Source: an uncultured Alphaproteobacteria bacterium
GTDB lineage: Bacteria > Pseudomonadota > Alphaproteobacteria > Micavibrionales > UBA1664
Assembly (NCBI GenBank): GCA_943789475.1
Contig: CALSUG010000003.1
Location: forward strand, 124,001 to 188,000
Length of the DNA: 64,000 nucleotides
Reading direction: 5' to 3'
The notes beneath the pieces are model-generated. The model saw only the letters and a list, made by a program, of their open reading frames with translations. It was not told where the DNA came from and searched no databases. Shown here one piece after another: positions 14,462 to 55,602 of the stretch. The position numbers were made by a program, and so were the translations under genes. The first letter of the stretch is position 1, and every line of letters starts with the position of its first letter.

Positions 14462-14568
14462 AATTCTTATCACCTTTTGTACACATCTCAAGAAATGCAC
14501 GTTGTTTGCTTTATACAGATGAATAGCACCTTCAAATCATGGCGATATTCTGTCCGCGGTTTGGACAT

Positions 14569-14584
14569 TGCAAAACCCATGCCA
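14569..14584 (-). promoter_or_regulatory. Sigma-54 promoter for flgD operon
   Basis: Read on the minus strand the sequence is TGGCATGGGTTTTGCA, against the consensus TGGCACGNNNNTTGCA. The invariant GG (-24) and GC (-12) are exactly 10 bases apart. The predicted start of transcription would lie about 95 bases before the flgD ATG. Sigma-54 control of hook genes is known in Alphaproteobacteria such as Caulobacter. Confidence 0.82.
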
Positions 14585-14759
14585 AAGATAAAATTTAACG
14601 CAGCAACACAGCAACACAGCAATGATGCGAATACAAAAGTATGCATTTCACACTCTCCTTGTTTTAAAAAAACAACTTACTAATATGTGTTTACTACATG
14701 GAAAAAGCGTTCAACTCTTTTTCTTTTACAAACTTTAAAAAACATAGGGAGAACCACAA

Positions 14760-21922: not shown

Positions 21923-22006
21923 ACCAAGTCTATCCTAATGCTTGCCGTAATTATGCGAAGCATATAACATTTTGAATTATATTCATTGCAAGGGTTCACC
22001 TGTTTT

Positions 22007-23368: not shown

Positions 23369-23374
23369 TGTGCC

Positions 23375-25477
23375 ATGACAAAAGAGAACGTTGCGACAAC
23401 TGATCCACTTCTCCAGTGCTTGGTGCATTTAACGGCTCATTATGGTCAGGCTCAATCTAGTGAATCACTAACCTCCAATTTAGCTTATACCGATAAAGGT
23501 ATGGATATTCCTTTATTTCAACAGGCTGCGCTAAATGCACGCCTACGTACAAAACTCGATAAGCGTGATTTAAAATCAATTACATCTGAACTATGCCCTG
23601 TTGTTGTAATATTGAAAGGAAATGAAGATGTTGTTCTTCACGATATTACTGATGGCAAAGTGAGTGTTTATCGTCCATCGGAAAACAAAAAACGAACCCT
23701 CAAACTAGAAACGTTAGAGGCGGAATACACGGGATATACCTTACTCATCCATAAATTCAGTGAACGTCGAGCACAAGAAAGACATTGGTTTTGGAGCATT
23801 GTTCGCAATAATCGCCCCATATATCGAAAAGTCGCCATTGCAGCTGTTTTAATCAATCTATTTGGACTCGTTAGCCCCCTTTTCATCATGAATGTTTATG
23901 ATCGCGTTATTCCAAACAACGCATTCGAAACGGGTTGGGTTTTGGCGATTGCCGCGCTCACCATTTTTGGATTTGATTTTATTATTCGAACATTACGCGG
24001 ATATTTCATCGACCTTGCAGGGCGTAAAATTGACGTGATTGTTGGGCGTCGTATTTACGATCATTTGCTCAATATGAAACTCGCGCATAAACCACAAAGC
24101 AGTGGCGCATTCGCAAATATGATCCGTGAATTTGAAGGTATTAAAGAGTTTTGTACCTCGGCCACATTAACCGCTATTATCGATTTACCATTTGCTCTAC
24201 TGTTTATTTTCGCTATTTATCTGTTAGCGGGAAATATAGCGCTCATTTTACTAGCGATCATGGTAATCGTGACTATCATTGGGTACGCCCTACAATTTCC
24301 ACTCAAAAAATTAGTACGTGAAGCAATGCAGTCAGCCGAAGCAAAACACGGATTATTGATTGAAACAATTAACGGTCTTGAAACAATAAAATTGACTCGC
24401 GCAGATGGACAAATGCGATCTAAATACGAGGCACATCTTGGTGATTCTGCAACAGTTTCACAAACATCACGCTTTTTCTCATCCATGGCTGTTAATTTTG
24501 CTACACTATTTCAACAATCCGCATCGATCATTGTTGTCTTATTCGGCATGTATATGGTCGAAGATGGTACTCTAACCATGGGTGCCCTAATTGCCGCGGT
24601 TATTATGGGCGGAAAGGCTATTGCACCCATTGGACAAATCGCTGCATTGGTCACAAAATTTCATACAGTAAAAGGATCGCTCAACACACTAAATGCACTA
24701 ATGGCCGCGCCCGTTGAACGTCCAGAGGGCAAACGTTTTTTAAACCGTCCTGACCTAAAAGGTGACATTGCACTCGATCGTGTCTCATTCACGTACCCAA
24801 ATGATCAACGTAAAATTCTGGATGGTATTTCATTGTCAATTACGGCTGGTGAAAAGGTAGGAATAGTCGGGCGTATTGGTTCAGGGAAAAGCACATTAAC
24901 CAAGATTATCGCAGGATTATATGATGCCACCGAAGGTGATGTATTTGTTGATGGGACGGACACAAGACAAATTGATCCAGCCGATCTCCGCAAAACAATC
25001 GGTTATGTGGCACAGGAAACAATTCTTTTCCGCGGTTCTGTTCGCGACAATATCATCACAGGGAATCCCCAAGCCACCGACGAAGAAATACTAAATGCCG
25101 CAAAAAAATCAGGTGTACATGATTTTATTGCACGCCATCCGATGGGATATGATGCACCTGTAGGCGAACGTGGCGATGGATTGTCAGGCGGTCAAAAGCA
25201 ATGTGTTTCACTGGCACGTGCCTTTGTCACAAATCCAAAAATCATTCTCGCAGATGAACCAACAAACGATATGGATACTCAGGCAGAAGAGCAATTTATC
25301 AACCATATGCAAGGATTATCACAAGACAAAACATTGATCTTGATTACACACAGACAAAGCCTGTTAAAATTAGTTGATCGCCTAATCATTATCGATCAAG
25401 GAAAACTTGTGGCTGATGGTCCCCGTGACAAAGTGATCGCAGCAATTAATGGAGATGGAGGTTCCTCTGATGAATAA
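23375..25477 (+). CDS. Type I secretion ABC transporter (LapB/LssB-like)
   Basis: 700 residues. Residues about 1-140 are a C39-like domain without the catalytic cysteine, as is typical for exporters of RTX and large adhesins that are not cleaved during export. Five to six membrane segments span about 150-420. The ATPase has Walker A GRIGSGKST (499-507), signature LSGGQ (603-607) and Walker B IILADEP (623-629). The ATG follows AAGGAA. Length and order (outer-membrane protein, ABC, adaptor) match the LapEBC class. Likely cargo: the RTX protein at 14.8 kb and the FecR/cadherin protein at 29-31.9 kb. Confidence 0.94.
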   Translation: MTKENVATTDPLLQCLVHLTAHYGQAQSSESLTSNLAYTDKGMDIPLFQQAALNARLRTKLDKRDLKSITSELCPVVVILKGNEDVVLHDITDGKVSVYRPSENKKRTLKLETLEAEYTGYTLLIHKFSERRAQERHWFWSIVRNNRPIYRKVAIAAVLINLFGLVSPLFIMNVYDRVIPNNAFETGWVLAIAALTIFGFDFIIRTLRGYFIDLAGRKIDVIVGRRIYDHLLNMKLAHKPQSSGAFANMIREFEGIKEFCTSATLTAIIDLPFALLFIFAIYLLAGNIALILLAIMVIVTIIGYALQFPLKKLVREAMQSAEAKHGLLIETINGLETIKLTRADGQMRSKYEAHLGDSATVSQTSRFFSSMAVNFATLFQQSASIIVVLFGMYMVEDGTLTMGALIAAVIMGGKAIAPIGQIAALVTKFHTVKGSLNTLNALMAAPVERPEGKRFLNRPDLKGDIALDRVSFTYPNDQRKILDGISLSITAGEKVGIVGRIGSGKSTLTKIIAGLYDATEGDVFVDGTDTRQIDPADLRKTIGYVAQETILFRGSVRDNIITGNPQATDEEILNAAKKSGVHDFIARHPMGYDAPVGERGDGLSGGQKQCVSLARAFVTNPKIILADEPTNDMDTQAEEQFINHMQGLSQDKTLILITHRQSLLKLVDRLIIIDQGKLVADGPRDKVIAAINGDGGSSDE

Positions 25478-26804
25478 TTCAGAAGAAGAAAAAAAGACAA
25501 CCGATCTCGATTTTATGAGCGACATTAATGCAGCAACACGCCTGCAACCATCTTGGCAAGCAAACATTTTACTTTATGTTATTTGCGCGCTCTTCATCTT
25601 TATTGTTGTTTGGGCAAACATCGCAAAATTAGAAGTTATCACACGGGGTGAAGGAAAAGTTGTTCCAACCAGCGAAATCCAACTGGTTCAATCATTGGAG
25701 GGTGGAATACTAGCCGAATTAAACATCAGTGAAGGTGACAAAGTTGAAAAAGGGCAGATATTAGCCCGCATTGAAAATGTTGCCTTCGCATCAGAAGAAC
25801 GCGGTATTGAGGCACAATCACTCGCCCTAACATTAAAACAATCACGTCTCAATGCCGAAAGTGAAGATCGTAAATTCACAATCACCGATGATCTAAAATT
25901 ACAAAATATGACATTGGCAAATAATGAGATCGCCCTCTATCAATCGCGTCAAAATGGACTGCAAAAATCATTGGCCGTGGCCGATGAAATTGTGAATAAA
26001 AACGAAGCCAATTTAAAAGAAATTGATGCCACAATTAAACGCCTGCGTGATTCAAAAAATTTGCTATCACAACAATTAAAAATTACGCGTAATTTGGTCG
26101 CAAAAAATGCAATGCCAAAATTAGAAGCATTAAAACAAGAACGTGAATTTTCAGAAATTTCAGGAAATTTAAATGCATCTATCCAGCGTAAAAAGGCATT
26201 ACAGGCCGACCTTGCCGCGGCAAAAAACACACGTGAGGAAACAAAGGCAAAATTCAAATCCGAGGCATTAACTGAATTAAGTCAGGTTGAAACGCAATTA
26301 GCAGGATTAAAAGAATCCCTCACCGCCGCGGGTGATCGCGTTGACCGTACCGAATTACGTGCACCTGCCGCTGGTGTCGTCAAAACAATTAATCAAAAAA
26401 CAATTGGCGGTGTTGTCGATCCCTCAATGAAATTAATTGAAATTGTTCCATTGGATGATGATTTAAAAATAACGGCAAAAATTTTACCTGCCGACATCGC
26501 ATTTTTAAAAATTAACCAAGATGTGAATGTCAAAATCACGGCCTATGACTCATCAAAATTTGGTGCATTGCGCGGAAAATTAAAACGCATCAGCGCCGAT
26601 ACGATAGAAGATAAAGAAGGCAATATCTTTTTTGAAATTGATGTGATCACCGATAAAAATTATCTAGGTTCACAAGATGCGCCGCTGCCTATTATTCCAG
26701 GTATGATCGCCGAAACCGAAATCATCACCGGCAAACGTACCGTTATGTATTACCTTGCCAAACCTTTCCTTCGTGCGCGTGATCGCGCAATGACGGAACA
26801 ATAA
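25470..26804 (+). CDS. Type I secretion HlyD-family adaptor (LapC-like)
   Basis: 444 residues from the ATG at 25470, which has GGAGG 8 bases upstream and overlaps the end of the ABC gene by 8 bases; an in-frame ATG at 25449 lacks such a site. One membrane segment at about 31-52 (ILLYVICALFIFIVVW), lipoyl half EGGILAELNISEGDKVEKGQ, a long coiled-coil hairpin (about 85-275), second lipoyl half RAPAAGVVKTI, and a C-terminal beta domain ending PGMIAETEIITGKRTVMYYL, the HlyD family signature. It connects the ABC transporter to the outer-membrane channel. Confidence 0.94.
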   Translation: MNNSEEEKKTTDLDFMSDINAATRLQPSWQANILLYVICALFIFIVVWANIAKLEVITRGEGKVVPTSEIQLVQSLEGGILAELNISEGDKVEKGQILARIENVAFASEERGIEAQSLALTLKQSRLNAESEDRKFTITDDLKLQNMTLANNEIALYQSRQNGLQKSLAVADEIVNKNEANLKEIDATIKRLRDSKNLLSQQLKITRNLVAKNAMPKLEALKQEREFSEISGNLNASIQRKKALQADLAAAKNTREETKAKFKSEALTELSQVETQLAGLKESLTAAGDRVDRTELRAPAAGVVKTINQKTIGGVVDPSMKLIEIVPLDDDLKITAKILPADIAFLKINQDVNVKITAYDSSKFGALRGKLKRISADTIEDKEGNIFFEIDVITDKNYLGSQDAPLPIIPGMIAETEIITGKRTVMYYLAKPFLRARDRAMTEQ

Positions 26805-29043: not shown

Positions 29044-31857
29044 TTAAACAATACCACCTGTTGATGCACCTTCGATATTAGCTTCAATCAGGACACTTCC
29101 TAAAGTCGCATGAGAATATTCAACAAATGTTTCGTCACCTCGAGCAACTGTTCCTGCTTCTTTTGTAAAACCATGGTTCGTTAAATTGACATCCGATCCT
29201 TCGTGATTAAAGTACAAACCATTTTTGGAATCCGGTCCTCCAAGAGTGTCATTACCAGGCCCCATTGCAAATCTAATTTCACCACTATCTGATGTTCTCA
29301 AAAGATCTTTCAAATCCTGCAGATTTAATTTCAATTCGTCGTAACTATCAACAAACCTAATTTCTTCAATAGATTTTAAATCAGCACTATTACCAGAAGC
29401 GTTAGATACAGTGCTCGTAAAATCAAACGTTTGCATCCCTAAGCCACCTTTCAGTTTTATCATATCATAGCCGCCTCCACCCTTGATAAATTTAAAGTCA
29501 TCGTCACCAAGGATCATTGTGTTATTCGCACCATCGCCAAATACAATATCATTATTAGATGACAGTGTATCTACACCCGTTCCAGTCACGTGTTCTACAT
29601 CACCTGCAAAAACAATGATATTCTTAAAATCTGTGTTTCCACCGCCATCGTTCAAATTAACACCAATATTAAATGTATCTGACGTAATTGACGATGTTCC
29701 TGATACATTGCTTGATCCACCGTCTGAGCTGATCGTATAATTACCACCATCATCATATATTGCGTATCCTGATTTTAATTTTAACGCAACATGAGCACCA
29801 TCATCAATAATTTCAAAAAATTCATTGGTCCCACCTACTTTAAACAGATTGCCAGCAAGATTAAAATCACCTGCATTAAAAACATCGCCATCAGGATCGT
29901 TAGTATGAAGCCTTGTAATAACAGCCCCATCTACACCAAATGGAACTACACCATCGATATCACCTGTTACACTAAATCTATCTTCCAACACACTATGAAT
30001 TGTGGGATTTTCATTCACATCATCTACACCAATTGTAACCGTTTTCGTGTATGTATTACCGTTTCCGTCATTAACCTCAATATCCAAGTCATATGACGAG
30101 GTTATTTCAAAATTTAATGCACCTGCAACATGAATCTCATCCCCTGATATTGAAAATTTTCCAGCGGCATTACCACCCGTGATTGAATATGTGTATGTTC
30201 CAGCAGCATCAGCATCCGCAGCAGACAAAACACCAACAACTGTACTCGCCGATGAATTCTCAGCCACGTTACTATTCGTTAAATTGATATTTGTTGGTGA
30301 TTCATCATTAATATCATCAATGGATACACTAACCGTATAATTTGAATACGCGTTTGCACCATCTGTCTGTGTAATTTCGACAGAAATACTTGTTTCTGTT
30401 TCATAATCAAATTGAGCACCACTAACAGCAACTAATTTTAAAACACCGCCGACTTCACGAACTTCAAAACGAGAATCATTTGTTGAAAATGATGTGTGAT
30501 GTGAAACGTTATCATCAACTTCCGAAAAAGTAAGATTTGCAATTTCCGTATCACTAGCCAACCCTGAAGCTTCATCATTTTCACTAATACTCGCTAAGAT
30601 TACTGTATCGCCTGTAATTTCTGCAGACTCATTTGTATCTTTCACCTCTATATTATACGATTTCGCCGTCACTTCACCCGTATCATTATTCACTGCACGC
30701 ACGCGAACCTCATGTGTATCATTCGCTTCTGCATTACCAGAATTTGTACCAACAAATGAAACAACACCTGTTGTTGAATCAATAACAAATTTTCCACCTG
30801 CATCATTGGTAAGACTATACGTCACATTTTCTGCACCACTGCTCAACGCCATTTGTCCAATAACAACACTAACGGACGAACCATCTACGTTCTCATCCAA
30901 ATCCACTTTATTATTTACAACTAATGAATCAGGTTTCGTTAAAACTGAGATATCTGCTTGTTCATTTTCTTTGTCTGCCTCTTCACGATTGGCCATTTTT
31001 TTTGCTCGCTTTGCCTTTGCACGATGAGCACGAGCTTCTTTAACAACTTCCCCCTGACCGTCTGAATTTTCTAAATTTAATTCTTGAGCAACCTGAGCCT
31101 CTTTTACCTCTTCTAAAAGCGCTTCTTCGGCAGTTTCATCAACAACCTCCTCTGCGCTTGCCTCTTTATCTTCCACTTGATCTTCTGCCGCATTTTCAGC
31201 AGCATCTTTTTTATCCTCTGTTGTTACCTTAGATTGATCCTGTTTAATTTGATCATCAAAAGATGAAAATAAAGATGAACTTACAGATTTAACTCCACTA
31301 TAATCATTTGCAACACGTGAAACATCCAATGTTTTTGGCTCACTTGGCGCAATCTCACGTGATGATAATAGCACCGTATCAAATTGATTCGTTAACAATC
31401 GTTCGCCACCATCGTTACGCACAACAATGGCCCCCTCTAATACAGAGACCTGACTTTCACCACCTGGAACAATTTTACCACCAATAATAGTACCGCGAAT
31501 ACCAATTGATCCAACAGGTGTGTCAATTTCAACACTATCTGGGTTCTCACGACCAATTAAACCCGATGTATACATGAACACACCACGAACAACTGAAAAA
31601 TCCTGATCGCCAGATTCTGACGCAGGATCAAAAACAAATTCATCAATAGAAATACGAGCATCTTCAGAAACGGCAAACGAACTATCATCAACAAAACCAA
31701 TATTTACGGCACCATCACCTTCGGTTTCCACAATATCACCAATATAAACCTCCGCCCCCAGTGTGATTGGTTCTTCACTACCGTCCGTACGAATAATTTT
31801 GGCAATACCTGTGATTTCGGTAACTTCACCGATTTGATCTGGATTTGTATAAGTCAT
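29044..31857 (-). CDS. FecR-domain / cadherin-like repeat surface protein, probable type I substrate
   Basis: 937 residues, no signal peptide. Residues about 5-150 form a FecR-like domain (GDIVETEGDGAVNIGFVDDSS; TPVGSIGIRGTIIGG). A long charged, Glu/Lys/Ala-rich linker follows (about 190-305). Three cadherin-like repeats lie at about 310-640 (LDENVDG; YETETSISVEITQTDG; VAENSSASTVVGVLSAADAD), and the C-terminus has a degenerate RTX-like segment (VFGDGANNTMILGDDD; MGPGNDTLGG). Such proteins are exported by LapBCE-type systems. The gene converges on the cyclase gene of that operon with an 11-base gap, and AGGGGA precedes its ATG. Adhesin function is inferred. Confidence 0.83.
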   Translation of the reverse strand: MTYTNPDQIGEVTEITGIAKIIRTDGSEEPITLGAEVYIGDIVETEGDGAVNIGFVDDSSFAVSEDARISIDEFVFDPASESGDQDFSVVRGVFMYTSGLIGRENPDSVEIDTPVGSIGIRGTIIGGKIVPGGESQVSVLEGAIVVRNDGGERLLTNQFDTVLLSSREIAPSEPKTLDVSRVANDYSGVKSVSSSLFSSFDDQIKQDQSKVTTEDKKDAAENAAEDQVEDKEASAEEVVDETAEEALLEEVKEAQVAQELNLENSDGQGEVVKEARAHRAKAKRAKKMANREEADKENEQADISVLTKPDSLVVNNKVDLDENVDGSSVSVVIGQMALSSGAENVTYSLTNDAGGKFVIDSTTGVVSFVGTNSGNAEANDTHEVRVRAVNNDTGEVTAKSYNIEVKDTNESAEITGDTVILASISENDEASGLASDTEIANLTFSEVDDNVSHHTSFSTNDSRFEVREVGGVLKLVAVSGAQFDYETETSISVEITQTDGANAYSNYTVSVSIDDINDESPTNINLTNSNVAENSSASTVVGVLSAADADAAGTYTYSITGGNAAGKFSISGDEIHVAGALNFEITSSYDLDIEVNDGNGNTYTKTVTIGVDDVNENPTIHSVLEDRFSVTGDIDGVVPFGVDGAVITRLHTNDPDGDVFNAGDFNLAGNLFKVGGTNEFFEIIDDGAHVALKLKSGYAIYDDGGNYTISSDGGSSNVSGTSSITSDTFNIGVNLNDGGGNTDFKNIIVFAGDVEHVTGTGVDTLSSNNDIVFGDGANNTMILGDDDFKFIKGGGGYDMIKLKGGLGMQTFDFTSTVSNASGNSADLKSIEEIRFVDSYDELKLNLQDLKDLLRTSDSGEIRFAMGPGNDTLGGPDSKNGLYFNHEGSDVNLTNHGFTKEAGTVARGDETFVEYSHATLGSVLIEANIEGASTGGIV

Positions 31858-31995: not shown

Positions 31996-33192
31996 TTAAT
32001 GGTGCAATAGCCATTCTGTAAGCTTATCCTCAGGTTGAGGTTTAGAATATTTATATCCTTGTGCCATTTCACAATCGGATTCGAGTAAAAGTTCTTCTTC
32101 TCTGTTTTCTTCAATTCCTTCGGCAACAAGCGACATATTTAAACTTTTTGCCAAATTAATAATACCCTTGACTAAATTAAGGGCACTTTCATCTTTTGTC
32201 ATTTGGACAACAAAACTGCGATCAATTTTCAAAGTATCAATCGGGTAATGATGCAAATAAGAAAGAGATGAATAACCCGTTCCAAAATCATCGATCGCAA
32301 TTTTAAATCCTGCGTCACGACATGCCTGCAGCATGCTTCGCACCTTTTCAGGATTATTCATCAACAATCGCTCCGTCATTTCAATTTTAATATCAGATGG
32401 CTTGACTTGTGTTCTTTCACACACGGCCAATAACTTTGTTAAAAACTCAGGGTGCAACATATCAATCGCTGTAAAATTGACACTCATAAAAGCATTTTGA
32501 TCAATATGAGGATTTGCTTTTTTCATACGGTGCAACGCATTTGCAGCTTCTTCCACTGCCCAATCTGATGCTTCGACAATTAACCCGCTATCCTCAGCAA
32601 TTGGAATAAACAAATTTGGAGGCATGAATCCTTTTTCAGGATGTATCCAACGCATTAAGGCTTCGAACCCTTTAATCTCTTTCGTTTCAAGATCTATTAT
32701 CGGTTGGTAATATAACATCAATTCATCATTATGAATTGCGTGTTTAAATTCGTTTGCCGTTTTTAAATGGCCTATCGCTTTACCACTCTGTGTAATTTGC
32801 TTCTCATGCGCCTCTGTCGAATCAGGGTTATCACTTTCACCAAAAACATTAACTCTTGTAATTGTGTCGCGATATCGACCTAAAATAACCTTCGTAACAA
32901 TTTTCATGATCGGATCGGATGATTCCAGCCGATGTTGAAAATCTTGCTCTGTAATTTTTATAACAGTACAGTCTTTAATCGCACGCACACTTGCGGTTCT
33001 GCGTTTTCTATCCACCAAGGCCATTTCACCAATAATTGCTCCGGCACCTCTTGTCGCAAGGATTTGTGTCGATCCATCGGGATGATTAATAAAAATCTCA
33101 ACGGATCCATCATCAATGATGTAAGCACAATCACCAATTGTGCCTTGCTCCATAATCATTTCACCGCTATTAAATTTTATAGTTTTCGTCAT
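31996..33192 (-). CDS. Cyclic-nucleotide-binding domain fused to EAL phosphodiesterase
   Basis: 398 residues. Residues about 1-120 form a CNB domain (IDDGSVEIFINHPDG; GAIIGEMALVDRKRRTASVRAI, where GEMAL and RTAS form the phosphate-binding cassette). Residues about 150-395 are an EAL domain with EAL itself (GFEALMRW), the catalytic Asn (SVNFT), IEMTE, DDFGTGYSS, the lysine in LKIDRSF, VAEGIE and QGYKYSKP. All metal and catalytic residues look intact, so c-di-GMP hydrolysis is expected, controlled by a cyclic nucleotide. No membrane segment. A paralogue with the same layout lies at 54.4-55.6 kb. Confidence 0.92.
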   Translation of the reverse strand: MTKTIKFNSGEMIMEQGTIGDCAYIIDDGSVEIFINHPDGSTQILATRGAGAIIGEMALVDRKRRTASVRAIKDCTVIKITEQDFQHRLESSDPIMKIVTKVILGRYRDTITRVNVFGESDNPDSTEAHEKQITQSGKAIGHLKTANEFKHAIHNDELMLYYQPIIDLETKEIKGFEALMRWIHPEKGFMPPNLFIPIAEDSGLIVEASDWAVEEAANALHRMKKANPHIDQNAFMSVNFTAIDMLHPEFLTKLLAVCERTQVKPSDIKIEMTERLLMNNPEKVRSMLQACRDAGFKIAIDDFGTGYSSLSYLHHYPIDTLKIDRSFVVQMTKDESALNLVKGIINLAKSLNMSLVAEGIEENREEELLLESDCEMAQGYKYSKPQPEDKLTEWLLHH

Positions 33193-36000: not shown

Positions 36001-36522
36001 ATGTCTTTACTTGATTTAAAGGACAATAAACCATCAAAGGTTAAGGCATTCCCTGCCTATATTATCAACATCGTCATTCTTGTACTTTCAATGCGCTCAC
36101 TTGATTTTTTAGCCATTGAAAATGTTCACAGTATTTTTTTCCTAACACCTCTTTTTTACTGGATCATTCATAAACCCGCCATCACACCATTATGGTTTAT
36201 TTTCCTAAGCGGACTCGCCATTGATTTTGCTATTGATGGATTATTGGGATTGCATGCCTTTTTGTTCGTAACCCTAACAATGATTTTATTTAAAATTCGT
36301 CGCATTATCTTGTCCCAACCTGCATTATATCACTATCTCATGTTTGCTATCATCGTATGTGGGTTTGAAATTATTCGTTGGTGCATGGCAAGTCTTTTAA
36401 CGTGGGAATTGTGGAGTCTTTGGCCATCCCTTCTTGCCATCGTTATTAATATTGTGGCTTATGGACCGATCTTACTTGTCCTTAAAGGGGTGCACCGTGT
36501 AATGTCTGGATATGGTCGATAA
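36001..36522 (+). CDS. mreD: Rod shape-determining membrane protein MreD
   Basis: 173 residues with five hydrophobic segments and the family feature FLSGLAIDFAIDGLLGLHAF. It starts 8 bases after mreC and overlaps the PBP2 start by 11 bases. MreD is the small integral-membrane subunit of the elongasome. Confidence 0.9.
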   Translation: MSLLDLKDNKPSKVKAFPAYIINIVILVLSMRSLDFLAIENVHSIFFLTPLFYWIIHKPAITPLWFIFLSGLAIDFAIDGLLGLHAFLFVTLTMILFKIRRIILSQPALYHYLMFAIIVCGFEIIRWCMASLLTWELWSLWPSLLAIVINIVAYGPILLVLKGVHRVMSGYGR

Positions 36523-38376
36523 CACCTCCAACAAAAAACAATTCGGACGACGCGCCTTTACCCTTGGCTTGTTAAGCACCGCATTATACGGAGGGTTATT
36601 TTCACGTTTAGGGTGGTTACAAATTGTTGATGGACAACAATATCAAACATTATCCGATCGCAACCGTATTCACGTCAACCTTACAACACCTGTACGTGGT
36701 TACATCCTTGACCGCCATGGCAAAATGTTGGCTTATAACGAACAAAATTTTCGCGTACAAATTATCCCCGAACAAACCCAAGACATTCAACAATCACTCG
36801 ACAATCTCGCCCGTATTATTGACCTGCGCCCATCGGAAAAAGAAGAAATCATCAAAAGATCAAAAAAACAGGCACGCTTTATCCCTGTTAAAATTAAAGA
36901 CAACCTGAATTGGGAAGATGTGTCTGCGATTGAAATATCACTTCCCGATCTTCCTGGTATTTCCATTGATGTAGGACAAAAACGACTTTACCCCTACGAC
37001 AAACATTTTGCTCATATTGTTGGATACGTTGGTCGTGTCAATGACAGGGAAATGACAAATGATCCAATCCTACGTCTACCCGACTTTCAAATTGGAAAAA
37101 CAGGACTAGAAAAACAATTTGAAAAGCGACTCCGTGGTCGCGCGGGAACAAAATCTATCGAAGTAAATAGCGCAGGCCGTATGGTACGTGAACTTAACGA
37201 AGAAAAAGGCGTCATTGGACGCACCATTACAACAACCATTGATATTGACCTGCAAAAAAAGGTCATGAAAATTTTATCACGCGAAAAATCAGCCTCCGCC
37301 ATTGTTATGGATGTGCATAGTGGCGCCGTCTATGCCTGCGCATCATATCCATCTTTTGACCCAAACCTATTTGCCACGCGACTTCCACAAAAAACATGGG
37401 ATGGATTACTCAAAAACCCAGGAAAACCATTAAATGATAAAGCGCTATCAGGGCAATACCCACCAGGTTCAACCTTTAAAATGATTACGGCTCTGGCAGC
37501 GCTAGAGGGCAGGAATTATAGATGAAGAAACAAATTTTTTCTGTAATGGGCATCACGATGTTAACAAAGAACGTTTTCATTGCTGGAAACGATCCGGACA
37601 CGGATACACAAATGTTTATACAGCCTTAGAGGAATCCTGTGACGTATTCTTTTATAACATAGCCGAAGAATTAGGTATCGAACGTATCGCCAATATGGCG
37701 CGCCGTTTTGGTCTTGGACAGGTTTATGATCTACACCTACCACAAGAGTCCGCGGGGCTCGTTCCTGATAAAAATTGGAAATTAGGAAAACTGGGTACTG
37801 ATTGGCATTTGGGTGAGACCATTAATACAACGATTGGGCAAGGACACTTACTAACTACTCCGTTGCAATTAGCCGTCATGACATCACGCATTGCCAATGG
37901 TGGATATGCCGTTGAACCATGGATTGTTGCCCATGATGGACATTATCACACACGTAAACGTCAACAACAATGGCCCAAGATGCGATTAAGCAATCGCGAA
38001 CTTCGCATGGTGCAACGGGGTATGGAACTTGTGATTGCAGGAAAAGATGGCACGGCAAAATCATCCGCAATTCAAATAGACTCTCAAGAAATGGCGGGGA
38101 AAAACTGGAACCGCGCAGGTTCGCCGTATTACAATGGCGGAACGTCGCGCGGGATTATTGTCCCAAGATGACATTATTTGGAAACATCGACATCATGCTC
38201 TATTTGTTGGCTATGCCCCCTATAATAACCCACAATATGCAGTATCCGTCGTTGTTGAACATGGAGGAAGCGGATCAGGAACCGCCGCCCCACTTGCACG
38301 CGATATTCTCAAAGCTACCCAAGATATAGCACCTGCAAAAACAAAAATATCGACAACGCCCATAAAACCAGATTAA
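36512..38376 (+). pseudogene. mrdA: Penicillin-binding protein 2 gene interrupted by two +1 frameshifts
   Basis: Three in-order reading-frame pieces together give a full PBP2 of 620 residues if one base is removed at two places. Piece 1 (36512 to about 37507) has the membrane anchor, dimerisation domain and catalytic STFK (residues 320-323). After GGG at 37507-37509 the frame shifts; the restored frame reads AGIIDEETNFFCNGHH and contains the second motif SCD. After AAAAA at 38100-38104 it shifts again; the restored frame reads AGKTGTAQVRRI, with the KTG motif right at the break. All catalytic motifs and both flanks are otherwise intact, so the breaks are recent or are sequence errors. PBP2 is the transpeptidase of rod elongation. 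rodA, usually next, is absent here. Confidence 0.9.
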
Positions 38377-44797: not shown

Positions 44798-46048
44798 TTA
44801 ATTCCCAGAGTTAGCCTTACGAACCTTAACATTTAACGATTCTATAGCAGGTTCTCTGTTCACCACAACTGTTGCACTAGTTGACAAAGCGATCGCTTCC
44901 AATAATTTCATTTGCTGTATTTGAATATAATTATTCAATACATTTTGAAATAAAATAGAGCTGAGATAAGCCTTATCTGTTGTAAAAAATTTCTGCTTTG
45001 AATAGTTAGGATTCATAAAACCAATCGCTAATGCTTCTAGCTGCCCCATATGACTTCCTTGACCACCAGGCAATAATTTTTCTCGCGTTGCTGCATCTAA
45101 AAAATCACCCTCTTCTAAAATTTCTTTTAAATAGGGAACTGCAGCTGACCCTGTTCCATCAACCTTATTATTTGCAATTAAGTTATTTAACACAGTATTA
45201 AATATAGACATTTCTGCTTTTAATCTCTCCGATTCAATAAACAAAACTTTTCCATCTGTTTTAGGATCTTCCAAAACATCTGGTGATACATCCAGTATTG
45301 TCCGTGTTTGTGTCATCAATTTTTCAAAATAATCAACCTTAGCAAGGTCGTCATCTGTGATTGCCCTATTATTCAAAACACTAGACGCCGATAAATGTAC
45401 ATTAGTTCCATCACCACCACAAAAACTATTTTTTGCCCCATTCCCCTGTGCAGAACACAATGCAACCGTTTCCTCTTCAAACAATTTTCTCATCCCATCG
45501 ACAAGGCCATTTTCAAATGTTGTGCCGGCCTCATTATTAATGGCCGCCATAGTGGATGCATTTCGTGCGTCGGCATACGCACTTGCACGAGAGTAAGCAG
45601 GCCCCATACCACGACTGGTCGTCAGCAAGGAACAATTATTTTCCGCTATATCACTGTTATTAATAACTGTTGTTACATTATGACCTTCACGGGCTGTCGT
45701 CGCCGCATTTTGGCTTGCCCCCTGCGCAACATTTACTCGCTGCACATCCGACCCCGTCAAAGATGTTAAGGCTTGTTTGGCCATCAATTGAAGGTTTTTA
45801 ATAATCGCATTCGCCGCCTCTAAATTAGAATCAATGATCGGCTGAGTTTCATCCGCTCCGATTTTTACATCAATCCCTGAACCTCCACCTGCAGATATTG
45901 CCTCCGCTGGAACATGCGCAGCTTCTGATGATCCGCTTGATCCCGTTGATGTCGAACCACCGGGGTTAACCGGTACAGCATAGCCTTCATTAACAAAACA
46001 AGCAGTTGCCATTACAGTTACAAAGAATGCCAAAATAAATTTATGCAT
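44798..46048 (-). CDS. Unknown secreted protein divergent from the Dot/Icm genes
   Basis: 416 residues. A signal peptide is cleaved near EGYA. A Gly/Ser-rich segment follows (about 28-58), then long helices. Four cysteines in the mature part (NNCSLL, VALCSAQG, SFCGG) may pair. The C-terminal helix LNNYIQIQQMKLLEAIALSTSATVVVNREP vaguely recalls minor pilus components of type IV systems, but no family is identified. It is divergent from dotI and shares a 195-base intergenic region with it, so a role with the Dot/Icm apparatus is possible but unproven. Confidence 0.7.
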   Translation of the reverse strand: MHKFILAFFVTVMATACFVNEGYAVPVNPGGSTSTGSSGSSEAAHVPAEAISAGGGSGIDVKIGADETQPIIDSNLEAANAIIKNLQLMAKQALTSLTGSDVQRVNVAQGASQNAATTAREGHNVTTVINNSDIAENNCSLLTTSRGMGPAYSRASAYADARNASTMAAINNEAGTTFENGLVDGMRKLFEEETVALCSAQGNGAKNSFCGGDGTNVHLSASSVLNNRAITDDDLAKVDYFEKLMTQTRTILDVSPDVLEDPKTDGKVLFIESERLKAEMSIFNTVLNNLIANNKVDGTGSAAVPYLKEILEEGDFLDAATREKLLPGGQGSHMGQLEALAIGFMNPNYSKQKFFTTDKAYLSSILFQNVLNNYIQIQQMKLLEAIALSTSATVVVNREPAIESLNVKVRKANSGN

Positions 46049-46243: not shown

Positions 46244-46948
46244 ATGAGCGCACAACAAAACAAACAGCCACAAAAAAGACAGGCTCCGTCACAAGCGAAA
46301 AATCCAAACAAGCCCGAGGTCACATCTCCCCTTGGCAATGTTGTTATTCGCAATCAATTTTACCGTGACGGGTATCGTACACTTATAAAAATAGCCGTTA
46401 TTGAGGCTATTGCTATCGTCGGACTTATCGCCACATTTGTTGTTTTTTTAAACATATACACACCTACACGCACCTATTTTGCCACAACAGAGGACGGCCG
46501 CGTTGTACCAATGATAGCCCTTTCACAGGCAAATTTGAGCAAACCCGCACTTTTATCATGGGCTGCACAAGCCGCCAGCGAGACTATGACTTTTGGATTT
46601 CACGATTATCGTCGTCGTTTGCAAGAGTCGTCACGTCATTTTACACGCCGTGGATGGGGAAGCTTTACAAAGGCTTTGCAGGATTCCGGTATGATTGAAA
46701 CTGTAACAAGCAATCGTCAAGTTATATCCGCAACACCTCGATCTGCGCCTACAATTTTAGCAGAAGGACTTATGCCGACAGGGGTTTACAGGTGGGAAGT
46801 CGAAATGCCTATGCTAATCACATATGAACTTGGCCAATCACGACGCAGCGACACTATGAACATCCGATTGGTTATTGTGCGTGTACCCAAATTAGAAAGC
46901 GCAAATGGTGTTGGCATCGAGCAATGGATAGCCTATAAAGGGTCGTAA
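46244..46948 (+). CDS. dotI: Type IVB secretion inner-membrane protein DotI/IcmL (TraM-like)
   Basis: 234 residues. After a Gln/Lys-rich N-terminus comes the family block IRNQFYRDGYRTLIKIA, one membrane segment (about 47-69), TPTRTYFATTEDGRVVPM, a periplasmic NTF2-like domain with HFTRRGWGSFTKALQDSGMI and YRWEVEMPMLITYE. This matches DotI/IcmL of Legionella and TraM of IncI plasmids, which form part of the inner-membrane complex. First gene of dotI-dotH-dotG-dotF order. Confidence 0.9.
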   Translation: MSAQQNKQPQKRQAPSQAKNPNKPEVTSPLGNVVIRNQFYRDGYRTLIKIAVIEAIAIVGLIATFVVFLNIYTPTRTYFATTEDGRVVPMIALSQANLSKPALLSWAAQAASETMTFGFHDYRRRLQESSRHFTRRGWGSFTKALQDSGMIETVTSNRQVISATPRSAPTILAEGLMPTGVYRWEVEMPMLITYELGQSRRSDTMNIRLVIVRVPKLESANGVGIEQWIAYKGS

Positions 46949-46976
46949 AATAATATTTTGTCATAAGGTGAAAAAC

Positions 46977-48089
46977 ATGACTGACGTCAATACTGTCATT
47001 CAACAAACATTTAAAACACTTGTATTTAGTGGATTTTTGTCATTAACCGCACACACGGCTTTGGCACAATCTAGTAATCCATTAGATCAATTTAGAAAAT
47101 CAAACGCGGATAATGGTCAATCACCTACACAACAAGTTCCTGCACGACCTGTTGTTTCCATGCACAATAACCAATTACCCCCTCCAACAATTGGAGGGAC
47201 ACAGCAAGGTGGTTTACAACAATCAGCCATTAATCAGGCTCTACAAAACTACAATCTTGATGGAGGAATGTCACTAGAAGAACGACAAGCTGAAACAGAG
47301 CGTATGGCACGCGAGGCTGCTTTTGAAGCAACAATGAATGGTGCTTTCCCACTGAAACCTGAAGAAATTATGGACATTTTAGATCGTTACCGTGATATAC
47401 GCGAAGCCTCAGAAAGTCGTATCGGTGGCGCACCGAAACCAGAAATTACAATGCAATCAGTCTCTCTAGATCCAGGTTCACTGCCTCCCGTTATACAGTT
47501 GTCGCCAGGTTACGTTACAACTTTAAATATCGTTGATATGACTGGACAACCTTGGCCTATACAAGATTTAAGCTGGGGTGGAAATTTTGAAATTATTCAA
47601 CCAAAAGAAGGTGAAAACATCGTTCGTATTAGCCCGATGAAAGCACATGAAGTTGGCAACCTATCTATTCGCCTTCTCGATTTAAAAACACCCGTTATTT
47701 TTTCATTAAGTACTCAATTGGAAAAAGTACAATATCGATTTGATGCGCAAATTCCTGAATATGGCCCTTATGCAGAAACGCCACTTATCGACAACGGTCC
47801 TTCGATAACGAGTGCGCAAGCTGGTGGAGAAGATATTCTTCGTATTCTTGATGGCACACCGCCTGCTGGTGCAAAAAAATTAAACGTTGAGGGAGCTGAC
47901 GGGCGTACAATCGCCTATGATCTTGGCGGTCAAACCTATGTTCGCACCCCGTTAACATTGCTCTCACCAGGATGGAGCAACTCCATAACTTCCGCTGATG
48001 GAACAAATGTTTACATTATTAATAAATCTCCTGTCCTTCTTTTATCCGATAATGGAAAAATGACACGAGCCATGATTGAATATAATTAA
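46977..48089 (+). CDS. dotH: Type IVB secretion outer-membrane core protein DotH/IcmK (TraN-like)
   Basis: 370 residues from the ATG at 46977, which has AAGGTG 6 bases upstream; an in-frame GTG at 46968 is less likely. Signal peptide (TAHTALAQ). A Gln-rich linker is followed by helices (EERQAETERMAREAAFEA) and the conserved beta domain: LPPVIQLSPGYVTTLNIVDMTGQPWPIQ, and LTLLSPGWSNSITSADGTNVYII. This is the DotH/IcmK pattern, a component of the outer-membrane core complex with DotG. Spacing to dotI and dotG is short. Confidence 0.88.
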   Translation: MTDVNTVIQQTFKTLVFSGFLSLTAHTALAQSSNPLDQFRKSNADNGQSPTQQVPARPVVSMHNNQLPPPTIGGTQQGGLQQSAINQALQNYNLDGGMSLEERQAETERMAREAAFEATMNGAFPLKPEEIMDILDRYRDIREASESRIGGAPKPEITMQSVSLDPGSLPPVIQLSPGYVTTLNIVDMTGQPWPIQDLSWGGNFEIIQPKEGENIVRISPMKAHEVGNLSIRLLDLKTPVIFSLSTQLEKVQYRFDAQIPEYGPYAETPLIDNGPSITSAQAGGEDILRILDGTPPAGAKKLNVEGADGRTIAYDLGGQTYVRTPLTLLSPGWSNSITSADGTNVYIINKSPVLLLSDNGKMTRAMIEYN

Positions 48090-48100
48090 GGTTAAAAAAT

Positions 48101-49423
48101 ATGAACGATTTTAACGACGACGATTTTGACAATTTCGATGACAACAGCTTTGAAGATTTCAATTCAGAAAATTCTTTAAAAGATGTCTGGCAAAACAATC
48201 CTTTAATAAAAATTTTTGCTGTTATTGGAGGTATAATATTGGTTATAGCCGCTATTATGATTTTTTCTGGAGATAAAGACGACAAAGAATCACGTATTTC
48301 AAACGCACCTGATGATCGCGAAATTCTCGGTGGTGAAATATCACAAAACTATGCTGATGTTTTAGAAGAAGTAAACGAACAACGACTTGATCGTGCCGTA
48401 CAAACAGGAACAAGCACTATCCCTATGCTTATTAATCCTGAAGAACAAGAACTTCTAACTGAAGTAGAAGAAACACCACCTTACGAAGAATTTGATCCCT
48501 TAGCAACGTTTCGTTCAGCCATGGAAGAGCCAAAGGCAACTATAATTGAAGAAGAACCAGTTCTTATTGCACCACAAAACCTTGCACCTGTGCAACAACC
48601 TGTTGCAATGCCCAGTCCAGAAGCCATTCAAGCACTTGCTCAAGCCATGGCCACGGATGTTAGTGGTATTTTAGGAAACCACAATCCGACAAATCCAAAA
48701 ATTCAACAAGTAACATCAAAAGATTACTTTAAAAATTTAGCTGCAGCCGAGTTATCCGCCCAGCAGGGCACAATGGTAGATACAGATGGTGACGGAATTC
48801 CCGACACACCGTTAAATAATTCAACTTCTAGCAACATAACTTATTCTGCCGACGATAGTGGTGAAGTTGTCCAAACAATTCTTGTTCCTGCTGGCGACAT
48901 AAATTACGCCCAACTCTTGACAGAAGCCAACAGCGATGTTCCTGGGCCTATTTTAGCCCAACTAGTCTCTGGCCCTTTGGCTGGTGCACGCCTCTTGGGA
49001 CAATTCTCACTCAGGGATGAATATTTGGTTCTCTCTTTTAATTCAATTATCATTGACGGAATCAATCAACCTATATCTGCTGTTGCTATCGACCCATCAA
49101 CAACACTTCCTGGTGTTGCCTCGGATGTAGATCGTCGCTATTGGACACGTGTTTTCTTACCAGCTGCCGCTAAATTTTTGGAAGGTGTGGGATCTGCCAT
49201 CGCACAAGATTCAGAAACAACGGTTACTGTATCAGGTGACACTGTTGTCGAGGAGACAAAGGCTCTTGATTTTGAACAAGAAATTGGAAGAGGTGTTGAA
49301 GAGGGTTTTTCCGAAATTGCTGAATTCATGGACAATGAAGCTGATTCTACAAAAATTCTTGTGCGTGTAGCACGAGGAACCGCCCTTGGAATTTTATTCA
49401 CAGAACCTGTTTTGGAGCAATAA
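48101..49423 (+). CDS. dotG: Type IVB secretion channel protein DotG/IcmE (TraO-like), short form
   Basis: 440 residues. A very acidic N-terminus (Asp/Phe/Asn-rich, 1-25), one membrane segment at 36-55, a variable linker (60-220), and a C-terminal VirB10-like domain (about 250-440): LVSGPLAGARLLGQFSL, YLVLSFNSIIIDG, AVAIDPSTTLPG, VDRRYWTRVFLPAAAKFLEGVGSAI. Legionella DotG is about 1,050 residues because of pentapeptide-like repeats, which are missing here. A DTDGDGIPD segment (227-235), like a calcium-binding thrombospondin type 3 motif, lies before the VirB10 domain. DotG spans the periplasm as the central channel. AAGG precedes the ATG. Confidence 0.9.
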   Translation: MNDFNDDDFDNFDDNSFEDFNSENSLKDVWQNNPLIKIFAVIGGIILVIAAIMIFSGDKDDKESRISNAPDDREILGGEISQNYADVLEEVNEQRLDRAVQTGTSTIPMLINPEEQELLTEVEETPPYEEFDPLATFRSAMEEPKATIIEEEPVLIAPQNLAPVQQPVAMPSPEAIQALAQAMATDVSGILGNHNPTNPKIQQVTSKDYFKNLAAAELSAQQGTMVDTDGDGIPDTPLNNSTSSNITYSADDSGEVVQTILVPAGDINYAQLLTEANSDVPGPILAQLVSGPLAGARLLGQFSLRDEYLVLSFNSIIIDGINQPISAVAIDPSTTLPGVASDVDRRYWTRVFLPAAAKFLEGVGSAIAQDSETTVTVSGDTVVEETKALDFEQEIGRGVEEGFSEIAEFMDNEADSTKILVRVARGTALGILFTEPVLEQ

Positions 49424-49426
49424 ATT

Positions 49427-50725
49427 ATGGACGATAATATAAATAAATCAGATGATATAAACATTGATCCATTAGAAAATGATCAACTTGCGCAAGAACT
49501 CTCTGATACGTTTGAGGAACCATTTGATGAAACCAGCGACAACAGTACCTTTTCAAACGACGATTGGGATGAGGAAATCGAGAGTGATTTTTATGAAGGC
49601 GAAAATGTAACCACAAGCCATTCTCCAAAATCACAAATAAATTGGTTTAATATTGGCGTTTTTGGTTTTGTTGGTATTGCCGCTATTGTTCTTGGATACG
49701 ATCAATTTATCGGTAGTGCACCAACACCCGTCTCTGTTATCCAACAAAAACCTGCCTCGCAAGCTCCTTCATTACAAGAAAAACAAGATTTAGCACAGCA
49801 AGCTATCTCTGGTACTCTAAACACCCCAACATCTCCCCAAGGATTTCTAGGAAACCCCGATATATTGGCCGATGCAAATAATGAAGAACAAGTCACTAAA
49901 CAACACAATGCAGATAACGATTTGTTCAATGTGTTAGACACCCCACCATCTTATGAAGATGATCTAGAAGATATGTTATCAACACTAAAACAACCAGCAG
50001 CTCCGAAAAAAAATGATATTGAAAAAATTGAAACTATAGAAACCATTGATACACTTCCGTTACCTTCTGATGCACATACGAAGATAAAACAAACACCTAC
50101 CACGTCCGTATCAAACAATACAGATATCTCCCCATCCTTACCTGTGATGCAAACAATCGAAACTGTTGCTGTTAAAGATGATACAAGTGATATAGCTATT
50201 AATGCCTCCACATCATCCATTGAAGAAACAACGGAAAGTTCACCAACGACGGCTACTACATCCGCTGATATTATCAAGATTTCGTCGCAGGTTGAGACGT
50301 TGAGTACACGACTTAATGATCTCACCTCAAGAATGGATACCATCATGGACAAAATGGATGCTGAACCCATTATGGCTGCACCAGCGCCAGCACCTGATAA
50401 CGCCCTCATTTCAAAAATGGAAGCGACCATTGCAACACTTGAAAAACGCGTTGAAACATTATCAAAAGCAAAACCTCCTGTAACAAAACGCTCAACAAAA
50501 ACTGTAACTAAGAAAAAGGTAACACCAAAAATTTCAAAACCTAAAGTCGTTTGGGAACTGCGTGGCGCATCACCAGATCAAGCCTATGTTGCACAAAAAG
50601 GTACACAAAATTTGCGCACTGTTGCTGTTGGCGAAAGCTTGAATGGCGTTGGGCGTATTACCTCAATCGCAATTGAAAACAACAGATGGGTTGTCCGCGG
50701 GACAAGTGGTATTATTACCCAATAA
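49427..50725 (+). CDS. Inner-membrane protein in the DotF/IcmG (TraP) position
   Basis: 432 residues. Acidic cytoplasmic N-terminus (1-70), one membrane segment at 73-90, a long low-complexity Thr/Ser/Asp-rich region, a coiled coil (about 285-350, with SQVETLSTRLNDLTSRMDT and MEATIATLEKRVETL), a Lys-rich stretch and a small beta domain at the end (KVVWELRGASPDQAYV; NNRWVVRGTSGII). DotF/IcmG and TraP share this layout, membrane segment plus coiled coil plus C-terminal domain, and follow dotG in both Legionella and IncI plasmids. The assignment rests on order and layout, not on a clear motif. Starts 3 bases after dotG. Confidence 0.55.
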   Translation: MDDNINKSDDINIDPLENDQLAQELSDTFEEPFDETSDNSTFSNDDWDEEIESDFYEGENVTTSHSPKSQINWFNIGVFGFVGIAAIVLGYDQFIGSAPTPVSVIQQKPASQAPSLQEKQDLAQQAISGTLNTPTSPQGFLGNPDILADANNEEQVTKQHNADNDLFNVLDTPPSYEDDLEDMLSTLKQPAAPKKNDIEKIETIETIDTLPLPSDAHTKIKQTPTTSVSNNTDISPSLPVMQTIETVAVKDDTSDIAINASTSSIEETTESSPTTATTSADIIKISSQVETLSTRLNDLTSRMDTIMDKMDAEPIMAAPAPAPDNALISKMEATIATLEKRVETLSKAKPPVTKRSTKTVTKKKVTPKISKPKVVWELRGASPDQAYVAQKGTQNLRTVAVGESLNGVGRITSIAIENNRWVVRGTSGIITQ

Positions 50726-50784
50726 AATCACCTGTTGACAAAAGAACAAAAATAGAACATTATTTCCTCATCCACACAATAAGT

Positions 50785-50826
50785 GCGCCTGTATAAATCC
50801 CCTCCGATTTTACAGGTGTTTTTTTA
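50785..50826 (+). terminator. Rho-independent terminator of the dotI-dotF operon
   Basis: GCGCCTGTA (50785-50793) pairs with TACAGGTGT (50811-50819) using two G-T pairs, extended by AAAT/ATTT around a bulge, and is followed by a run of T to 50826. It ends the four-gene Dot/Icm unit 60 bases after the last stop codon. Confidence 0.82.
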
Positions 50827-50856: not shown

Positions 50857-51189
50857 ATGACAACGCTTCCTATGGACAGTGATAACAACCCTATTCCAGC
50901 ATTAACCCTTAACCCAAATGGTGCTCATGCGATTAATGTAACAAGTGTAAGTGCACGCAACATAGCAGCGTTCGAAATCGATACACGTGTTATAAGCATT
51001 TACGCTACGGATGACGTTTTCATTCGATTTGGTGATACAATGGTCACAGCAAACAGTACCGATCATTTTTTTCCAAAAGGACTCTATTACGATTTTTCGA
51101 TTGGTGGAGATAAAGTTATGCATACGCCCTATGTAGCGGTTTTAGCCGCAAATGCAGATTGCTATCTTTATATATCTGAAAAACAATAA
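50857..51189 (+). CDS. Small unknown protein, 110 residues
   Basis: Not assigned. Beta-rich, no signal peptide. The pattern INVTSVSARNIAAFEIDTRVISIYATDDVFIRFGD... with a late LYISEKQ recalls small beta proteins seen in phage structural modules of Proteobacteria, but no phage genes surround it. GAAAGAGA precedes the ATG. It stands between the Dot/Icm terminator and putA. Confidence 0.65.
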   Translation: MTTLPMDSDNNPIPALTLNPNGAHAINVTSVSARNIAAFEIDTRVISIYATDDVFIRFGDTMVTANSTDHFFPKGLYYDFSIGGDKVMHTPYVAVLAANADCYLYISEKQ

Positions 51190-54284: not shown

Positions 54285-54366
54285 ATATATTGGTGGTTAC
54301 ATTTTATTAATACTTTGTCTTTAGTGTAGTGTGTGTCATACAAAAATAAGAATAATAATATCGAAC

Positions 54367-55602
54367 ATGGACCCACAATCATTGCACGTTAAACGTAAAA
54401 TTTTTAAAGCAGGAGAGCAAATATTTGCCGAAGGCGATATTCGTGATCATGCCTACATTTTGGAAGAAGGTTCCGTCGATATTATTCGCGCACTGAATGG
54501 AAAAGGCGAAACACGTGTTGCGACACTAAATGCTGGTGATCTTTTCGGTGAAATGGCACTAATGGAACCAGGATTGCGCTCTGCAACGGCTATTGCAAAA
54601 AACAAATGCATTGCCTTTATAATATCTTCGTCCGTATTAGAAGATCGTCTACAAGGGCTTGATCCTGTTGTCACATCATTGTTTAGCATGTTGATTGAGC
54701 GCTATCGTTTTTCACGCATTGAAAAAGATCACAACGATGAAATTATGGGTCGTGTTATGGGGGATGCCGGCAAAGCATTCCACAGCCCGAATGCAGCACT
54801 TAGCCAATTTGCCTCACGCAAAACAGATGCTTTAAAGGAATTAGCACTAGAACAAGAAATTCGCCGTGCGCTTGATAATTGTGATTTCAAACCTTATCTA
54901 CAACCCATTGTGTCCTTAACCGATCAAAAAATAATTGGTTTTGAAACATTGATTAGATGGCATCATAAAACACGTGGCGTTATCATGCCTGATGATTTTA
55001 TTCCGATTGCCGAGCGCATGAATCTCATTCAAGCGATTGATCGTAAGATGTTAGAAATGGCTTGTGATATTATACCTAAAATGCACAAAGCCGTAGAAGG
55101 GGCAGACAAACCATTTATTAGTGTGAACTTATCAGGTGTGAATTTTGAAGACAATTCGATGGTCATGGGAATTGGCGAAGTTTTGAAAAATGCGAATGTC
55201 GATCCAAAGCATATCAAACTTGAAATTACCGAAAGTGCCTTTATCGGTAATGCCGATAATGCTGCAAAAATTCTTGATGGTTTAAAAGAACTCGGTGTTT
55301 CCATCGCCTTGGATGATTTTGGTGTAGGGTACAGCTCACTTGGCTATCTTCACCGATTTGCCATTGATGGCATCAAAATAGACAAAAGCTTTACTCACCG
55401 TGCTCGTGATAATAAAAAAGGCATGGATATTGTTGCAGCCATTATCGGATTGGCAAAAACATTTGATCTTGGCGTAATTGCGGAAGGTATCGAAACACAA
55501 GATGATATGGATAAATTAACCCAGATTGGATGTGTCGAAGGACAAGGATATTTATTCAGCAAGCCCCTCACCGTTGATGAAGCGTTAAAAACACTCCATT
55601 AA
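54367..55602 (+). CDS. Second CNB-EAL protein
   Basis: 411 residues from the ATG at 54367; an in-frame GTG at 54331 is possible. CNB domain at about 8-130 (EEGSVDIIRALNG; GDLFGEMALMEPGLRSATAIA: the cassette keeps GEMAL and R-SAT). EAL domain at about 165-405: the motif reads ETL (GFETLIRWHH), with SVNLS, LEITES, DDFGVGYSSLGYLHRF, IKIDKSF, IAEGIET and QGYLFSKP. The catalytic Glu, Asn, Asp-Asp and Lys are kept, so activity is likely. Same layout as the protein at 32-33.2 kb, but the two are clearly diverged. Confidence 0.92.
   Translation: MDPQSLHVKRKIFKAGEQIFAEGDIRDHAYILEEGSVDIIRALNGKGETRVATLNAGDLFGEMALMEPGLRSATAIAKNKCIAFIISSSVLEDRLQGLDPVVTSLFSMLIERYRFSRIEKDHNDEIMGRVMGDAGKAFHSPNAALSQFASRKTDALKELALEQEIRRALDNCDFKPYLQPIVSLTDQKIIGFETLIRWHHKTRGVIMPDDFIPIAERMNLIQAIDRKMLEMACDIIPKMHKAVEGADKPFISVNLSGVNFEDNSMVMGIGEVLKNANVDPKHIKLEITESAFIGNADNAAKILDGLKELGVSIALDDFGVGYSSLGYLHRFAIDGIKIDKSFTHRARDNKKGMDIVAAIIGLAKTFDLGVIAEGIETQDDMDKLTQIGCVEGQGYLFSKPLTVDEALKTLH

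Follow-up and report, generated by a model that had tools for sequence, protein, structure and literature searches.

A Dot/Icm-type type IVB secretion system in the chromosomes of Micavibrionales

The dotI-dotH-dotG-dotF operon

The DNA considered here is a window of 64,000 nucleotides, positions 124001-188000 of contig C3, from the genome of an uncultured alphaproteobacterium of the order Micavibrionales (1.97 Mb in nine contigs, 97% complete). Four frames in this window, all of them intact, had been read in an earlier note as dotI, dotH, dotG and a gene in the DotF position, in canonical order, and Pfam, NCBIfam and hhalign agree with that reading. The gene dotI/icmL (46244..46948, plus strand), TraM-like and belonging to the inner-membrane complex, matches Pfam PF11393 (T4BSS_DotI_IcmL) at 5.5e-57; its product matches Legionella DotI (PDB 3wz4) at 4.4e-25 and R64 TraM at 5.2e-9. 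It is followed on the same strand by dotH/icmK of the outer-membrane core complex (46968..48089; Pfam PF12293, T4BSS_DotH_IcmK, 4.6e-76), the product of which matches the IcmK chain of Legionella in PDB 6x62 at 2.3e-51.

The third gene, dotG/icmE (48101..49423, plus strand), encodes a short form of the VirB10-type protein, matching TrbI (Pfam) at 2e-11 and NCBIfam NF033900 at 7.7e-44. The NCBIfam DotG/IcmE match is confined to the C-terminal part of the protein. Against IcmE of PDB 9ngw (3.3e-23), residues 234-437 align with IcmE residues 837-1045 only. DotG is 440 aa long here versus 1048 aa in Legionella, which bears out the earlier description of a protein less than half the Legionella length and lacking the repeat region. 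Truncation of the gene was considered and ruled out because the orthologues across the order are also short, mostly 412-540 aa, and IncI TraO has 429 aa.

The protein encoded at 49427..50725 (plus strand), when queried alone, gave no significant match in Pfam or NCBIfam. It has an acidic N terminus, a single transmembrane stretch and a conserved C-terminal domain. An alignment of this domain from 23 orthologues (the window protein and 22 positional orthologues) matched plasmid TraP with 94.5% probability (7e-8) and an IcmG-like protein with 84% (7e-6) in hhalign, and the gene was on these grounds assigned to dotF/icmG (TraP-like). The C-terminal domain alone was used for this comparison; an iterated profile drifted into DotG via the acidic N terminus.

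The dotI-H-G-F unit ends at a Rho-independent terminator (about 50785..50819, plus strand), as had been proposed. Its RNA fold of -15.5 kcal/mol (z -6.45; equalled by 0 of 200 shuffles) stands before a T run and is followed by TTTTTTTATTTT. A simple scanner missed this terminator because of a bulge. The genes beside the operon, guaA and putA, were assigned by reading the sequence alone. A 110-aa protein of unrecognised family, encoded between the dot operon and putA (50857-51189), is kept in UBA1664 (1e-40).

Several other features of the window were observed. A type I secretion cluster (TolC-like protein, C39-peptidase ABC transporter and HlyD) lies near a gene for a 937-aa FecR/cadherin protein (21986-26804 and 29044-31857). 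Two proteins share the same cNMP-binding and EAL architecture (31996-33192 and 54331-55602), one of which immediately follows putA and the dot operon. A penicillin-binding protein (PBP_dimer and transpeptidase) is split into two neighbouring frames, 36512-37525 and 37695-38171, and ftsK in a separately numbered stretch, locus L005 (its positions 14326-16993), seems broken too. Such frames point to possible indel errors in the assembly; the dot genes are intact.

A TraW/IcmX-like family beside dotI

According to the earlier note, the window held no other Dot/Icm genes. This is true of the rest of the set, with icmT just beyond the end of the window, and should be amended for a probable fifth gene at 44798..46048 on the minus strand. 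It encodes a divergent secreted protein of 416 aa that is likely, from comparison of profiles, to be a remote relative of TraW/IcmX (a VirB5-type channel subunit), and is retained at the same position in Micavibrio sp. UBA1664. The window copy queried alone had no Pfam, NCBIfam or conj_TraW match, and a three-sequence profile of it showed no link to a single TraW. A larger family profile compared with a TraW profile was needed; hhalign then gave 86.6% probability (4.5e-6) over 285 columns with the cysteines in register. One of ten family members, that of M. aeruginosavorus ARL-13, matched NCBIfam conj_TraW at 1.8e-5, below the cut-off. Searching PDB profiles with the family returned an EF-hand match only, judged to be due to chance, and an AlphaFold model of the 416-aa protein from two sequences was unusable (pLDDT 35).

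The family adjoins dotI across the order, often as tandem copies; the window copy is single. ARL-13 has a pair of copies (448 and 399 aa); among the relatives, locus L056 carries four, L057 five, L060 three (469, 826 and 983 aa) and L062 two. The long proteins (L060 11140-16571, L056 40-7700, L057 498-8060) have no Pfam match. Read from the sequence, they carry repeat-rich N-terminal regions and reach 983 aa in total. According to reviews, the IcmX of Legionella is VirB5-like and forms with DotA a pentameric protochannel, which extends on activation (PMC12857230, PMC12981334).

The remaining machine at other loci

The earlier note had predicted that the remaining genes would be found elsewhere in the genome, and dotA, dotB, dotC, dotD, dotL, dotM, dotN, dotO and icmT are all there. 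Absence of dotB, dotL or dotO was to count against a type IVB secretion system (T4BSS); the three were looked for and are present in the 1.97 Mb genome. The T4BSS genes are dispersed over at least six loci. On contig C3, icmT lies at 189784, about 1.7-1.8 kb past the window end, and the genes for an SLT-domain protein, dotD, dotC and dotB are consecutive near 213-216 kb. On C5, dotA is at 79487. On C6, dotO at 90301 is followed by the gene for a 165-aa membrane protein. C8 carries DotE/IcmC-like and DotP/IcmD-like genes with dotN (133-135 kb), as well as dotM, the gene for a 177-aa membrane protein and dotL (175-180 kb), arranged like trbA-trbB-trbC on plasmids.

DotC, DotD, DotH and DotG were all found for the outer-membrane core, DotA, DotI and IcmT for the inner membrane, DotB and DotO as ATPases, and DotL, DotM and DotN for the coupling complex. 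DotO (6.9e-205) is 37% identical to IcmB of a Xanthomonas plasmid. DotB matches TIGR02524 (Dot/Icm DotB) at 1.9e-119 with 399 bits, under the strict cut-off of 463, and TraJ with 247 bits. DotL matches PDB IcmO at 2.2e-125 over residues 14-617; of its 808 residues those after 617 lie outside the Legionella match, which stops short of the IcmSW-binding tail. The DotM match is at 1e-52. DotN was found at 2.5e-99, its profile matches PDB IcmJ/DotN at 8e-33 and two DotN orthologues pass the NCBIfam cut-off. DotN alone is no marker of protein secretion, since TraT of IncI plasmids also matches the DotN profile weakly.

Distribution in the order and in Micavibrio aeruginosavorus

DotH is present, as a single copy each time, in 108 of the 114 genomes of the order and in 46 of its 47 genera; DotM is present in 105 of the 114 and in all 47 genera. 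Every one of the 114 genomes has DotH, DotM or both. The six genomes without DotH all have DotM and the nine without DotM all have DotH, so that incomplete assembly is the probable cause of the missing genes. When the class was sampled evenly, matches came from 15 of 386 genomes, five from this order and ten from others. The relatives show the gene order dotI-dotH-dotG-dotF-(DotE-like)-(DotP-like)-dotN-dotO, which is the Legionella gene order. Two to four tandem DotI paralogues stand upstream of dotH in some alphaproteobacterial genomes (loci L075, L076, L077 and L084). At locus L053 (3559-5096), there are three tandem DotP/IcmD-like genes of 129 aa; two of them score identically, which would fit a recent duplication.

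M. aeruginosavorus ARL-13 is an obligate epibiotic predator of bacteria, the genome paper of which excluded a type IV secretion system (T4SS) (PMC3189940). A paper of 2018 describes the mechanisms of Micavibrio predation as not well understood (PMC6145908). In ARL-13, about 28 kb hold the genes for an SLT-domain protein, dotD, dotC, dotB and icmT, two TraW/IcmX-like genes, dotI-H-G-F, a DotE-like gene, dotN, dotO and a homologue of the 165-aa protein gene; dotM-x-dotL lies apart from this cluster, near 0.41 Mb. Within the cluster, reading of the sequence shows genes resembling flgK and flgL of the flagellar hook (L050 13977-17332), which separate the TraW/IcmX-like genes from icmT-dotB. A second Micavibrio genome among those compared is presumably that of strain EPB. 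No prior report of a T4BSS or Dot/Icm in Micavibrio was found in the open-access literature, and Micavibrio is absent from both a 2024 comparison of predators and a 2025 T4SS review.

Inheritance and relation to plasmids

A phylogeny against plasmids, as the earlier note had suggested, was run for DotH and DotO. The DotH tree comprises 51 rows, including seven plasmid sequences and Legionella. The order forms a single clade (99/92), as do the alphaproteobacterial chromosomal sequences (99/83); the seven plasmid sequences are grouped separately, with Legionella on the chromosomal side (90/79). Taken together, the group labels require 10 changes on this tree, the minimum possible, compared with a mean of 29.8 for shuffled labels. 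The DotO tree, made from a gene that is on a different contig here, shows the families in the same arrangement; long branches make its plasmid root weak. In both trees the order stands apart from the sampled plasmids and the host families are tracked, which is what vertical inheritance would predict.

Plasmids with dotH number in thousands; the plasmid DotH proteins are only 25-34% identical. Among the plasmid matches, one dotH stood by itself beside an IS element on a plasmid of Roseomonas, and a partial DotH match came from a Streptomyces plasmid, a surprising host.

No relaxase or plasmid gene had been noticed near the operon, and none was seen among the window ORFs scanned. The PF03432 search and the loci examined likewise show no linked relaxase, plasmid or ICE genes, and the dot loci carry chromosomal genes. 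In the genome of the window, PF03432 occurs at C6:120366 and, below the cut-off, at C5:280780, each about 27 kb or more from dot genes. This relaxase domain was found in 21 of 55 genomes, and in neither ARL-13 nor EPB. Single-copy presence across the order, trees that follow the hosts and the lack of a linked relaxase (PF03432) tell against an origin from a plasmid or ICE, and that reading was rejected.

Proposed function

The core of the machine is complete and the machine is present throughout the order. DotC, DotD, DotH, DotG and DotF would make up its outer-membrane core. To the inner-membrane part would belong DotI, IcmT and the DotE/P-like proteins, with energy supplied by DotO and DotB. 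The DotL-DotM-DotN coupling complex would pick the substrates, and DotA together with the TraW/IcmX-like protein would form a central channel reaching the contacted cell. Such a machine could be the tool by which these bacteria act on attached cells, through contact-dependent export of proteins, above all into bacterial prey. Its assembly, its protein substrates and prey as its target are inferred. Protein injection is suggested by the coupling complex of Dot/Icm type, by the lack of a linked relaxase (PF03432) and by the predatory habit of the one cultured lineage. The use in host or prey interaction that the earlier note had put forward gains strength from the presence of this system in M. 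aeruginosavorus, an obligate predator, and may be called probable. With a probability of about 0.6, these genes may be taken for a chromosomal T4BSS, old and vertically inherited, that works by contact and exports proteins into the cells to which the bacteria attach, of which prey is the likeliest.

It is unlikely that the genes encode a domesticated conjugation machine still moving DNA, either by mobilising resident relaxase-bearing elements or by releasing or exchanging DNA between cells. MPF_I systems are mostly conjugative, as the abundance of dotH on plasmids illustrates, DotM-x-DotL has the arrangement of plasmid trbA-trbB-trbC, and a relaxase domain occurs in two places in the genome of the window and in a part of the others. 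However, the machine is universal and the relaxase, for which PF03432 only was searched, is patchy, being absent from both Micavibrio strains and from the surroundings of the dot genes, which in turn track the host families. An eukaryotic target (protists or algae), as in Legionella, would agree with DotH, DotI and DotB being closer to the Legionella proteins than to those of IncI, and with the presence of the system in other alphaproteobacterial genomes. This target is considered quite improbable when set against the one cultured lineage identified, M. aeruginosavorus, an obligate predator of bacteria (PMC3189940); moreover, eukaryotic-type effectors were not noticed in a non-systematic inspection. 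The split of the genes over at least six loci might also indicate a system in decay, or stray fragments with no relation to one another. This explanation is hardly credible and is contradicted by the intact frames and by conservation: all genes are single-copy, at least one marker is present in 114 of 114 genomes and ARL-13 has most of the genes in one cluster.

The reading as a T4BSS exporting proteins into attached cells can be carried further. A whole order of epibiotic predators might prey by means of an ancestral Dot/Icm system that injects into other bacteria, with diversified tandem IcmX/TraW-like channel-tip proteins setting its reach or prey range; this extension is tentative and on balance doubtful. 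The universal presence of a near-full Dot/Icm set in the order corrects the statement of the genome paper that there was no T4SS. It also names a set of genes, the removal of which would test the mechanism of Micavibrio predation directly. Dot/Icm thereby appears in a lineage of Alphaproteobacteria, beyond Legionellales and plasmids, as a system long resident in the chromosome, which bears on its origin.

Comparison with known systems

The T4BSS described here is of a known kind; what is new is the lineage and the peculiar expansion of the TraW/IcmX-like family. With the Dot/Icm of Legionella and Coxiella it shares, in the relatives within the order, the succession dotI-H-G-F, DotE/P-like genes, dotN and dotO, as well as DotN and DotL proteins that match PDB structures and a chromosomal location without a linked relaxase. 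Unlike that system, DotG is without the long repeat region, the genes of the window's genome are dispersed, and tandem TraW/IcmX-like paralogues stand beside dotI in the relatives.

Conjugation systems of IncI and IncL/M plasmids (MPF_I: traH-traY, trbA-C) are similar in that traM-N-O-P corresponds to dotI-H-G-F, traH-I-J to dotD-C-B and trbA-B-C to dotM-x-dotL, and in having a short DotG. They differ in that no relaxase, primase or plasmid genes are linked to the dot loci here, and their DotH, at the low identity given above, lies in the opposite part of the tree. The family of the 416-aa protein, a likely relative of plasmid TraW and Legionella IcmX, resembles them remotely across 285 columns and has conserved cysteines, a signal peptide and a place next to the core operon. 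In contrast to these, several genomes of the order carry the family as two to five tandem genes, some of them N-terminally extended.
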